NCBI GenBank assembly: GCA_903825445.1 | Contig: CAIKAS010000200.1 | Location: 45,968 to 109,967, forward strand | Source of the DNA: an uncultured Acidobacteriia bacterium | GTDB taxonomy: Bacteria; Acidobacteriota; Terriglobia; Bryobacterales; Bryobacteraceae | Length of the DNA stretch: 64,000 nucleotides | Reading direction: 5' to 3' | In this document: piece after piece, positions 24,345 to 29,326 of the stretch | How positions within the stretch are numbered: position 1 is the stretch's first letter | Layout of the letters: each line of letters starts with the position of its first letter | Program-made: the position numbers and the translations under genes | The notes under the pieces: generated by a model | Seen by the model: only the letters and a program-made list of their open reading frames with translations | Told to the model about the DNA's origin: nothing | Databases searched by the model: none

Positions 24345-25910
24345 TTGGTTAACGCCGGAGATATGTCCGATGAGGCCAGTATGGCAAGAGGAGCCTCTTT
24401 TTTCGGTATCTGTACGCTGTGTTTGCTCGCGGCTTCTGCTGCGCATGGCGACGACACGTTCTATTCCCACGGAACATCGCAGGTTATCCTCATGTCGCCC
24501 GACACTATCGTCGCTGCTGCGGACAGTCGCAACACTTCTTATGCGGCTCTGCGGGATGGCACGGCGGTTCGTGACAATAGCGAGCGCTGCAACCTGCGCC
24601 GCCTGGATGGCATCATTGCCATGGCCGCTGGTCTCTCACGGGTCGGTGATTTCGACACACTCGACACGATTGACACCCTGTATAGGCCCGGTGATTCAGT
24701 GCGTACCGTCGCAGCACGAGTTCGTGACGCGATTCCCCCTCCCCTGTTGACCGCTATACAGGAGTTACGACGGTCGCTCAACGGCCGCATGGACGGTATG
24801 CGGCCGGCAAATCAGGTCACGCTCGAAGTCGCTATCATGGGACCCCAGGACGGCGCTGTCGCCATTGACGTGGTGACATTTCGCTTCGGGGGCACCGATA
24901 TGGATCCCCAAATTACTAGTTCTGAGTTTACGTGCCCGGGCGACTGCCCGGCGGGACACGCGGCCATCTATCTCGGAGTACATGACTCCATCGACCGCAT
25001 TATCGGCGCGAATCCCGATCTTGGTGCGCAGCCAACGCCCGAGAATGTCCGATTGCTCGCGGGTCTGGAGTACCTGAATCATCCGGACACTGTTGGCGGC
25101 GAACTCTCAGTCTTGAAAATTGAACGATCGGGCATAATGTTCCTGCAGCCCGGGGCTTGCGGGTTCAGCGATACCGTCACTTTGCAAAGAGTCGCGCCGA
25201 AGGCCGGAAGCAGCATGAAGGCGCAGACGCGGGACGCAGAGTTATTTGGCGCCGAACTGAGTGATCGGCTTGAAGCCATCCCGGATCTCATCGTCCACGA
25301 AGTTGCGACGCGCCATGCAAGACAAGGGCATCGCATCCAGACTGACGTTGTCGAAGCGGAAGTTCAGATTGTGGGGGATGAACAAGCGTACTCCGCCATC
25401 AGCAGGAACGGCAGGCCGTGTGCCACTATGTCAGACATACCCGGTGCCTGGGCGGATGGTGGATTGGCCACCATACTCCAGGTGACCCGCTCCGCCATTC
25501 AATCCCGGGTGCTGTCTTCTGTTAGCCGGATTACCGCATCCGGGGCACACCAGCTTGGCATTGCCTTCGACGTTCCATCTGCTGATCACATCTGGTCTAT
25601 TACGATCGGGGACAAACGCTACAGCCTTGATCTTCAGGGAACCGTTTGGATTGACCAGACAACCGGGAAGCTTGCTGAGATCCACTGGCAGAGCAGCGGC
25701 GGACTCGTCCAGGCCGCCGAGCACATCACCGGCATTACGTGGGGCGTTACCTTCGCTCCTGTGTCCGTGGCAGGCAAGCAATACGATATACCGGAAACAT
25801 CCACCTACCGGATAAACTTCGACAACGCATCCGGTCGCACTGACTGGATTGATACTCGTTTTTCGGGATTTCGTCGCTTCGGAGCCTCAAGTAATATTTC
25901 GTTCGAATAA
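24345..25910 (+). CDS. Secreted proteasome-like Ntn-hydrolase candidate (tandem copy 1)
   Basis: N-terminal signal-like segment followed by SHG-TSQVILMSPDTIVAAADSR, which aligns without gaps to the proteasome beta Thr1-to-Arg19 region. Start possibly at internal MARGASFFG. Confidence 0.55.
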   Translation: MVNAGDMSDEASMARGASFFGICTLCLLAASAAHGDDTFYSHGTSQVILMSPDTIVAAADSRNTSYAALRDGTAVRDNSERCNLRRLDGIIAMAAGLSRVGDFDTLDTIDTLYRPGDSVRTVAARVRDAIPPPLLTAIQELRRSLNGRMDGMRPANQVTLEVAIMGPQDGAVAIDVVTFRFGGTDMDPQITSSEFTCPGDCPAGHAAIYLGVHDSIDRIIGANPDLGAQPTPENVRLLAGLEYLNHPDTVGGELSVLKIERSGIMFLQPGACGFSDTVTLQRVAPKAGSSMKAQTRDAELFGAELSDRLEAIPDLIVHEVATRHARQGHRIQTDVVEAEVQIVGDEQAYSAISRNGRPCATMSDIPGAWADGGLATILQVTRSAIQSRVLSSVSRITASGAHQLGIAFDVPSADHIWSITIGDKRYSLDLQGTVWIDQTTGKLAEIHWQSSGGLVQAAEHITGITWGVTFAPVSVAGKQYDIPETSTYRINFDNASGRTDWIDTRFSGFRRFGASSNISFE

Positions 25911-25996
25911 AAAAGCAGCCATCGCCGCACGACCTCTGTAAGCATATCGGCACTAACCATTGTTGTAACCGGAACTCATCAGCCACGACCGATGAG

Positions 25997-27523
25997 TTGG
26001 TTATGAACAAAGGCGAGTCCAACCGGCTCTTCGTCCCGCTATTCCTCTTCGCCGCCTCCATCGTGAACGCGGCTATTCCTTCGTATTCCCACGGTACCTC
26101 GGAGGTCATACTCATGTCGCCCGGAACAATCGTGGCCGCGGCAGACAGCAAGGAAGTCTCGTATCTCTTTCTTAGCGATGGTAGTTCCGTGAGTGACAAC
26201 AAAGAGGTTTGCAAAGCACGTCGGGTTGGCTCAGTGCTGGCCCTGGCTGCGGGCTATGTGCAGATTGGCGATTTCAATATCTTCGATGAAATCGAAACTC
26301 TGTACCATGAGGGTGATTCGGTTGAGACGCTTGCAGCGCGACTTCGTGATATCCTACCCGGCCGATTGGGGACAGTGGTGAATCTGGTCAACGACGCGAG
26401 CGGGAAAAAATTGGAAAAAGAAGTTTCTGGAAATGATCTGCTGCAGATAGCATTGATCGGTAATGAAGGCGGCGCACCCGCACTCCACATCATTTCGTTC
26501 GCGCTGGTTCAGGGCAAAGAACCTCACCTTGGCGTCGCTTTAAACGAGCGGCGCTGCCCCGGCGACTGCAGCAATGGCTCCGCCGCGTTCTATCTGGGGG
26601 TTCATGATGCCGTCGATGAGTATGTTCGCAAAGTGCCATCACTTGCCGCGAACGCCACCATTGATAACGCCATGCTGCTTTCCGGGCTCGAATACGCCAG
26701 CCGTCCCGATATTGTGGGCGGCAGGGCTTCACTGTTTCGCGTGGACTCCCCCGGAATTTCTGTTGTAGAGTCTGGAGCGTGTTCTCCTGAACAGGTTGAG
26801 CCGCGTTCTCTCCCTGGTGTGACCACGATATCCAGCACCACCCCATCCGGCCTGCCTATAATCGGAGAACTCGACCGGCGAATTGCCGCCGTGCCTAACA
26901 TTGTGTGTCATGAAACCACTGCCCGCTTTTCGAAGCACGGCAGCCAGACTCAGTCGGACAGTTTCGACGCCGAAGTGAGCATCGCCGAAGACCGGGAGAT
27001 GTATTCTTCCATCCACCGAAACGGCAAGGCCTATAACCGGATATCCGACATGCCGGGGGCATGGGCTGAGGGGGAACTGACAACCATGCTTAAGATTACA
27101 CGCGACGCCATTCAGAATCATAGTTTTCAGATGGTCTCCCGCGTGGCGGCAGGGGGTCAGCGGGAGGTTGGGGTTGAATTCCGTGTCACCGCAGCGGAGA
27201 ACGCATGGACACTGACTGTGGGTAAAGAACGTTTCGCGATGGCTTTTGACGGAACGGCCTGGTTCTCGGCCGACTCCGGCGACCTCACCGAGATTACCTG
27301 GCATAGTGTCGACCTGCAGTTGCCATCTCGCATCGGGATCTCGCAAATTGCCTGGACTACCGTCTTCCAGGACACCAAAGTCGCAGATGACTCCTTCGTA
27401 GTCCCGGTGGTGGCGACCTATAGCGTGCAATATGCAGATCGTTGCCGTCGCTCAGACTGGACTGAAGCGCGTTTCACGGACTTCCGTCGGTTTGCTGCTT
27501 TGAGCAGTATCAATTACAACTAA
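25997..27523 (+). CDS. Secreted proteasome-like Ntn-hydrolase candidate (tandem copy 2)
   Basis: Paralogue of the preceding ORF along its length (SHGTSEVILMSPGTIVAAADSK, RCPGDC, ISDMPGAWAEG, DFRRFAALSSINYN); likely start MNKGESNRLF at 26003. Confidence 0.55.
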   Translation: MVMNKGESNRLFVPLFLFAASIVNAAIPSYSHGTSEVILMSPGTIVAAADSKEVSYLFLSDGSSVSDNKEVCKARRVGSVLALAAGYVQIGDFNIFDEIETLYHEGDSVETLAARLRDILPGRLGTVVNLVNDASGKKLEKEVSGNDLLQIALIGNEGGAPALHIISFALVQGKEPHLGVALNERRCPGDCSNGSAAFYLGVHDAVDEYVRKVPSLAANATIDNAMLLSGLEYASRPDIVGGRASLFRVDSPGISVVESGACSPEQVEPRSLPGVTTISSTTPSGLPIIGELDRRIAAVPNIVCHETTARFSKHGSQTQSDSFDAEVSIAEDREMYSSIHRNGKAYNRISDMPGAWAEGELTTMLKITRDAIQNHSFQMVSRVAAGGQREVGVEFRVTAAENAWTLTVGKERFAMAFDGTAWFSADSGDLTEITWHSVDLQLPSRIGISQIAWTTVFQDTKVADDSFVVPVVATYSVQYADRCRRSDWTEARFTDFRRFAALSSINYN

Positions 27524-27577: not shown

Positions 27578-29326
27578 ATGAGTGTGCATGTGAGACGTTC
27601 CCGGATCCTCCTGACAGCCTTGATGTTTTTCGGTGCCTGCCTTCTTACTGCCCAGGGTGCCGCACCGACCGTATCGGCGCTGCCCACCAGCTTGACTTTC
27701 AACTGGCAGATGGGCGCGGCGATTCCGGCCTCGCAGGTTGTTTCGCTGAAAATTACTGCAGGAACGCCAGCGTATACCGCTACAGCGTCGGTCGCCACAC
27801 CCTGGCTGATTGCGACATCGAGCGCTGCTACGTTGCCAGCCGCACTGACCGTTTGGGTCAATCCATCCACGTTGACGCCGGGGACGTATGTCTCCACCGT
27901 CACGGTGACTGCCGCCGGTGCCGCAGGTCCGATCACTATTCCGATCACGCTTAATGTGACGCTCCCGCCGGGGAGTGCGGTCGTCGCACCCACCACACTG
28001 GCACTCGCGTCCCCGGGATCGCTCACAGGAACCTTCGCAATTACCGCCGGTCTTGCGCCCACCACCTTCACTGTCGTTTCCGGTGCCACATGGCTGACCG
28101 TCTCAGCCAACGCCGGAGCCGTATTGCCCAATGAAACTCAGACGCTCACAGTCACTGCCAATCCCGCGGCGCTCAACCCACAAGTTGCCGCCTATCCCGG
28201 AAAGCTGACTGTTACCACAACCGCCAATGGGGTTGCCACGACGCAGACCGTGACTGTCAATCTGACTGTGAATGCACAGACGCCAACAGTTGCGAGCGTC
28301 TGGCCATCACAGATTCCGGTGGGTTCGCCTAATACAACGCTCACTATTCAAGGCGTCAATTTCTACAGCGGAACGACGGTGACTGCCACTGGCTCGGCAA
28401 CTCCGTTGAAGCTGACGCTGGTGAGTTCCACTGTTCTGCTGGCGGTGCTTCCGGCTGCTCAGGTCGCAGCGGTCGGAGCCGTCAATTTGACCGTTACCAA
28501 CCCCGCGCCGGGTGGTGCAGCCGCGCCCTACGGTATTTCCGTCGGTAATGCTCCCTCTATTGCCGCGATCACTAACGCCGCGAGTTACTCGTTGGGTGCC
28601 GTCAGCCCGGGCGAAATGATTGCTATCTTCGGCCAGAATTTGGGGCCAACGCCGGCCGTGGATTTCACTGTGGCGGGCGGCTTTGTTCCCACCAGCGCGG
28701 GGGGCGTCTCAGTCACGATTGACGGGCAACCTGCTCCGATACTCTATGCGAGCGCTTCGCAGGTTACGGTTCAGGTGCCGTACACAGCGCAACTGGGAAC
28801 GGCGGCACTCGGCACCGCCAGAACAGTTGTATTAACTTATGGATTAGCAGCCCCCGTCTCCACGACTACGGATATTGTGGCTGCGGCCCCAGGCGTGTTC
28901 ACCATGAATGCCTCCGGCGTTGGTCAGGCGATCGTACTGAACATCGATCCGGTGACGTTCGCATACAGCGTCAACTCCGCCGCCAATCCCGCAAAGATAG
29001 GCAACGCCGTCACATTCTTTCTGACCGGTGAAGGCGATTACGCCAGTGCGACCTATGCGACTGAAACTGGCTTTATCGTGCCTGCCACTCCGCCCGTTGC
29101 CACAGGCGTCTATCCGGAGTTAGCGCCCCTTCCCACGGTGACTATAGGTGGCACGGCCGCGACCAGCGTAACTTACGCAGGTCCGATTCCCACGTGCATG
29201 CTGGGGCTCCTGCAGGTAAATGCCGTAGTGCCTGTTGGCGCAACGACGGGGAACGCAGTGCCACTTTTGGTCAACATTGGAGCGGGGCAGACACAGATCG
29301 GTCTGACCATGGCTGTTGCCCCGTAG
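27578..29326 (+). CDS. Secreted protein with BACON-like repeats, IPT/TIG domain and Solibacter-type C-terminal domain
   Basis: Signal peptide; IPVGSPNTTLTIQGVNFYSGTTV (IPT/TIG); IAAITNAASYSLGAVSPGEMIAIFGQNLGP (Soli_cterm-like). Confidence 0.78.
   Translation: MSVHVRRSRILLTALMFFGACLLTAQGAAPTVSALPTSLTFNWQMGAAIPASQVVSLKITAGTPAYTATASVATPWLIATSSAATLPAALTVWVNPSTLTPGTYVSTVTVTAAGAAGPITIPITLNVTLPPGSAVVAPTTLALASPGSLTGTFAITAGLAPTTFTVVSGATWLTVSANAGAVLPNETQTLTVTANPAALNPQVAAYPGKLTVTTTANGVATTQTVTVNLTVNAQTPTVASVWPSQIPVGSPNTTLTIQGVNFYSGTTVTATGSATPLKLTLVSSTVLLAVLPAAQVAAVGAVNLTVTNPAPGGAAAPYGISVGNAPSIAAITNAASYSLGAVSPGEMIAIFGQNLGPTPAVDFTVAGGFVPTSAGGVSVTIDGQPAPILYASASQVTVQVPYTAQLGTAALGTARTVVLTYGLAAPVSTTTDIVAAAPGVFTMNASGVGQAIVLNIDPVTFAYSVNSAANPAKIGNAVTFFLTGEGDYASATYATETGFIVPATPPVATGVYPELAPLPTVTIGGTAATSVTYAGPIPTCMLGLLQVNAVVPVGATTGNAVPLLVNIGAGQTQIGLTMAVAP

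Follow-up and report, generated by a model that had tools for sequence, protein, structure and literature searches.

Proteasome-type proteases are textbook cytosolic machines, into which substrates are fed by ATP-driven unfoldases. We analyzed 64,000 nucleotides of DNA from an uncultured Acidobacteriia bacterium (GCA_903825445.1, contig CAIKAS010000200.1, positions 45,968 to 109,967; hereafter the window), which contain two consecutive genes that we named P1 and P2. As judged from sequence comparison and structure modeling, they are probably tandem duplicates within an Acidobacteriota family of exported proteins with a proteasome-type N-terminal nucleophile (Ntn) domain. In the Gram-negative penicillin V acylases and choloylglycine hydrolases, which are also Ntn proteins, a Cys nucleophile can be freed by removal of the signal peptide; these enzymes differ from P1 and P2 both in Ntn family and in nucleophile. 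A 2023 title by Coluccia and Besaury, cited in PMC11924767, contains the phrase "secreted proteasome"; to judge from the title, we take this to refer broadly to proteases that are secreted.

Fuchs, Alva and Lupas (2021) distinguished 22 families of prokaryotic proteasome homologs of unknown function (PMC8665760). Like BPH, Anbu, and connectase, these are proteins of the same kind as P1 and P2: divergent, prokaryotic, and carrying Thr1 or Ser1, Asp17, Lys33, and Gly47. Several bear unknown C-terminal domains (RPC, DAH, and DGH), other divergent homologs were likewise found under the usual thresholds, and propeptides are described as restricted to the proteasome beta subunits and HslV (PMC8665760). 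Signal peptides, secretion, the periplasm, and Acidobacteria are not mentioned in the main text of that study, nor are the periplasm and secretion in a 2026 review that names it. To judge from these texts, the exported family appears to be an undescribed branch of a known kind, although its single-domain members may fall within one of the 22 clusters. With the 20S proteasome beta subunits (MEROPS T1, PF00227), P1 and P2 share the predicted fold and a short putative propeptide ending in Gly(-1), and P2 the complete Thr1-Asp17-Lys33-Gly47 set; the His(-2)-Gly(-1)-Thr1 junction of yeast beta5 (PMC4792962) is the same as that of the window pair. They differ by a signal peptide and predicted export, an extra C-terminal domain, a cysteine pair, and a score below the Pfam cut-off, and neither an alpha partner nor an ATPase gene lies alongside. 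HslV differs in being cytosolic, about 175 residues long, and paired with HslU.

P1 and P2 are 38% identical over their whole length and share one layout: the signal peptide is followed by eight spacer residues, the last three being Ser-His-Gly, then by an Ntn domain (about 230 residues) and a C-terminal domain (about 215 residues). Owing to its more extended S3/S4 loop and helices, the Ntn domain exceeds a typical beta subunit in length. A first-pass annotation of the window had proposed two tandem open reading frames (ORFs) with signal-like N-termini and the motif SHG-T-S-(Q/E)-VILMSP-(D/G)-TIVAAADS-(R/K). Both ORFs are present where it placed them, both begin with a hydrophobic signal segment followed by (-3,-1) sites, and the motif is exact in both and has the proteasome beta spacing of 17 from Thr to Asp. 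The C-terminal region, given there as about 300 residues, is shorter: it has about 245–250 residues, and its domain takes up about 215 of them.

Profile searches of the phylum Acidobacteriota and of the window's order yielded a set of 37 family members, P1 and P2 included; for the order, the figure is 24 of 200 genomes. The relatives were recovered with query alignment A6, queries A3 and A4 being insufficiently conserved. A first scan of genome contigs with P1 alone found none, and a plasmid search using one relative gave no match. A third paralog, L005, lies on a different contig of the same genome. In the family tree, P1 and P2 are sisters within a ten-member clade with a support of 100/100. 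The assembly containing the window (G000) is listed at 9.2% contamination. Orthologs are present in other genomes of the genus, which speaks against P1 and P2 being contaminants.

Several lines of evidence make a proteasome fold with its catalytic residues very likely. Searched against all PDB sequences, the family profiles matched almost solely proteasome, HslV, and BPH chains, with Thr1 aligned on Thr1; for the 37-member profile the best match was HslV, in an identical Thr1 register. The family profile also recovered a genuine HslV, encoded upstream of hslU, in another genome. An hhalign comparison with 30 HslV and proteasome sequences gave a probability of 83% (P 9e-6), again with Thr1 on Thr1. 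Among the 37 members, PF00227 was the sole Pfam family with matches in more than a single sequence, the matches of single relatives being weak (best E 8.4e-4). With an alignment restricted to sequences from the window and the loci, AlphaFold predicted for the P2 N-terminal domain strands and helices in the order of a proteasome subunit's alpha-beta-beta-alpha sandwich (predicted local distance difference test score, pLDDT, 92; predicted template modeling score, pTM, 0.90). The top 50 Foldseek matches of this model in the PDB were 20S subunits throughout (probability 1.00), and the full-length model gave structural matches of the same kind. The proteasome-like Ntn reading of the first-pass annotation is thus upheld by profile searches, the recovery of a genuine HslV together with the hhalign comparison, and the sandwich found by the structure prediction it had recommended. 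A coincidental short motif in an unrelated secreted beta-rich protein could account for the lack of any Pfam or NCBIfam match for P1 and P2, and for the phmmer search of the PDB with P1 alone, which returned nothing meaningful. This explanation is already contradicted by the family profiles, the structure prediction, and Foldseek, which each lead to proteasome subunits, and we regard it as extremely unlikely.

The most conserved columns of the family are Thr1, Asp17, Ser18, the equivalents of Lys33 and Gly47, Gly168, and Val207-Gly208. Thr1 and Asp17 are kept in all 37 members, with their exact spacing in 35 (Thr1 of one member with a shorter loop was placed by hand), and Ser18 in 34 of the 37 aligned sequences. 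The equivalent of Lys33, at position 40 of mature P2, follows the longer S3/S4 loop and is a lysine in 36 members; Gly47, of the oxyanion hole, corresponds to mature position 53 and is a glycine in 35, among them P1 and P2. As these residues are retained in a family whose mean column identity is 23%, the motif goes beyond chance. P1, with an Asn at this position, is the sole member without the catalytic lysine. Yeast beta5 without Lys33 is blocked in autolysis and loses about 83% of its activity even when Thr1 is free (PMC4792962). The prediction is therefore that P1 has little or no activity and that P2 is active. Judging from these residues, there is a good case that P2 would have Thr1-dependent activity, and P1 may well be its inactive partner.

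A hydrophobic signal segment was identified in 33 of the 37 members. Two cysteines are also conserved, C39 next to the lysine (35/37) and C229 at the domain end (34/37); both are absent from L042, which lacks a signal peptide. A pair that is kept in the family and missing in this cytosolic member is what one would expect if the exported proteins formed a disulfide. Export of most members is, from these features, highly probable. Upstream of Thr1, no conservation was observed other than at residue -1, which is Gly in 21 members, Ala in 12 (L105, L115, and 10 that follow the exact-spacing rule), and Met, Cys, Leu, or Gln in one each; the Leu and the Gln, in place of Gly or Ala, are those of L108 and L025. 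In the Ala(-1) members, Thr1 lies 2–9 residues past the hydrophobic core, a position at which signal peptidase cuts, as in AEA|TTI (L023), ATA|TTI (L024), ASA|TSV (L101), and LSA|TTL (L100). The gap between core and Thr1 is usually longer in the Gly(-1) members than with Ala (Mann–Whitney p = 0.002, among related members). According to the tree, residue -1 switched between Ala and Gly about seven times, at least three switches being forced by well-supported branches.

These data suggest how the nucleophile might be freed. In the 12 members with an Ala before Thr1 near the signal-peptidase position, export itself may free it, and we lean toward signal peptidase as the activator of the Ala-x-Ala|Thr members. 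The Gly|Thr spacer of the window pair and of others suggests self-cleavage. L042 starts with Met-Thr behind a good ribosome-binding site, and its Thr would be exposed by Met aminopeptidase. As read from the Ala(-1), Gly(-1), and Met-Thr sequences, the same Thr therefore seems to be released in three different ways within the family. A catalytically dead exported scaffold, in which Thr1 would have a structural role only, as in proteasome alpha subunits, would fit the loss of Lys33 in P1. Such a scaffold is unlikely, as Thr1, Asp17, Lys33, and Gly47 rank with the best-conserved columns of a very divergent family and Gly or Ala is retained at -1 although the preceding sequence is not conserved. 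Upstream of L017 (1390–1476), we observed an in-frame signal-peptide-like stretch, separated from this gene by a TAA stop.

The C-terminal domain matched no family or chain when its 15-member alignment was compared with Pfam and the PDB; it may resemble a LolA-like domain. The same genome encodes at least seven further proteins with this domain (L050–L056). Several of these have signal-like N-termini and some long low-complexity linkers, and the domain has no Pfam entry. Six genes, P1, P2, L005, L095, L096, and L100, encode both domains as a fusion, the relatives being from the same genus. At L098, L101, and L119, the C-terminal domain has a gene of its own immediately after the Ntn gene, with overlapping open frames. 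All fused and split cases belong to the ten-member clade, whose tenth member, L097, has no recognizable C-terminal domain. Fusion and adjacency suggest that the two domains act together, and, on this genomic linkage, they probably do.

We propose the following scheme. The signal peptide would take P1 and P2 out of the cytoplasm, and removal of all residues before Thr1 would free the nucleophile. In P2, self-cleavage at Gly|Thr would remove the 8-residue spacer, as happens in proteasome beta subunits, and in the Ala-x-Ala|Thr relatives, signal peptidase would free Thr1 directly. P2, with its complete Thr1-Asp17-Lys33-Gly47 set, would then be a working amide- or peptide-bond hydrolase (or a transferase) and would have to do without an ATP-driven unfoldase. 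P1, in which Asn replaces the catalytic lysine, would probably be an inactive or regulatory partner, and the C-terminal domain, which some relatives encode as a protein of its own, might position the enzyme or its substrate. We give about even chances to the broader reading of an undescribed family of exported hydrolases in which the release route changed repeatedly (Met removal in the cytosolic L042, Gly|Thr self-cleavage, or direct cutting of Ala-x-Ala|Thr by signal peptidase I, with export itself switching the enzyme on) and one lineage fused with its partner domain and was duplicated into an active/inactive pair.

Several observations weigh against the proposed scheme. No member reaches the PF00227 cut-off (best 19.5 vs 22.4 bits), which is a model threshold and not a biological feature, and the template modeling scores (TM-scores) to proteasome chains are modest, at 0.40–0.61. 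The proteasome Ser129, Asp166, and Ser169 are not retained as such. Three or four members are seemingly not exported, L010, L017, and L042 having no signal segment and L104 being too short to judge. Signal peptides and cleavage sites were called by simple rules and no trained predictor, and the Mann–Whitney p-value, from related members and thus nonindependent samples, is indicative only. An alternative keeps the proteasome fold and Thr1 and makes these proteins transferases or ligases of the connectase type, or small-molecule amidases, with the C-terminal domain providing the acceptor or target. The high divergence of the members and the lack of an ATPase partner are compatible with this view, as is the precedent of connectase, a proteasome homolog acting as a monomeric ligase (PMC8665760). 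The model shows no connectase-like two-helix insertion between S3 and S4, and there is no known substrate; we consider this alternative possible, though rather doubtful. If the exported-hydrolase reading is true, exported members must act without ATP, probably in an oxidizing compartment, and the family would show whether the proteasome fold functions outside a self-compartmentalized barrel. It offers a clean test of whether a threonine hydrolase can be activated by signal peptidase, and the partner domain can be approached directly through the gene pair, which occurs both split and fused.

Table 1. Features of the P1/P2 gene pair (window coordinates)
Feature	Position	Strand	Details and basis
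P1 ORF	24345-25910	+	Likely start ATG 24381, GAGG five bases before
P1 signal peptide MARGASFFGICTLCLLAASAAHG	24381..24449	+	Hydrophobic segment, (-3,-1) sites; GAGG five bases before ATG
P1 propeptide-like spacer DDTFYSHG, Gly(-1) at end	24450..24473	+	Sequence; Gly/Ala at -1 in 33/37
P1 proteasome-like Ntn domain	24474..25160	+	Thr1 24474-24476; Asn (AAC, 24591-24593) at Lys33 equivalent; 37-member alignment
P1 C-terminal partner domain	25248..25907	+	Profile A10, matches within own genome
P2 ORF	25997-27523	+	Likely start ATG 26003
P2 signal peptide MNKGESNRLFVPLFLFAASIVNA	26003..26071	+	Hydrophobic segment, (-3,-1) sites
P2 propeptide-like spacer AIPSYSHG, Gly(-1) at end	26072..26095	+	Sequence; Gly/Ala at -1 in 33/37
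P2 proteasome-like Ntn domain	26096..26782	+	Thr1 26096-26098, Asp17, Lys33 equivalent AAA 26213-26215, Gly47 equivalent; AlphaFold, Foldseek, profile searches
P2 C-terminal partner domain	26876..27520	+	Fusion in 6 genes; own gene next to the Ntn gene in 3

Upstream of P1, we identified flgF/G, flgA, flgH, and flgI followed by a transglycosylase gene, all on the + strand and separated by gaps of about 50–90 bases. Directly downstream of P2, a gene for a surface-type protein with TIG/BACON domains occupies positions 27578-29326 (+). With flagellar, transglycosylase, and TIG-domain genes as neighbors, the pair has neither hslU nor an alpha-type proteasome gene beside it. The gene order after flgFGAHI and the transglycosylase gene, on the same strand and with short gaps, might place P1 and P2 in flagellar assembly. 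We rejected this link as very unlikely: no flagellar gene was recognized beside family members at the other loci inspected, where only some of the neighbors were scanned, and the third paralog lies elsewhere. No shared function was found in the neighborhoods of the relatives except the partner gene for the C-terminal domain. A PAS/response-regulator gene lies 3' of L008 and L033, two members that are near-identical to each other.

Other proteasome-like genes were noticed during the searches. The window's own genome encodes a true HslV (L001), away from P1 and P2, and on contig C164 (L002:1246-2142, -) a 299-amino-acid proteasome-like protein with no evident signal peptide. The latter, with 37 bits, is over the PF00227 cut-off and represents another divergent proteasome homolog. 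A gene of genome G414 (L117:1483-2280, -) encodes a proteasome-like protein of a different family, starting with Met-Ser-Leu-Ile-Ile-Ser and containing AADSR, whose nucleophile is probably Ser1. Finally, two adjoining PF00227 genes in another acidobacterial genome (G006:C11:18708-19978) apparently form a proteasome alpha/beta pair.
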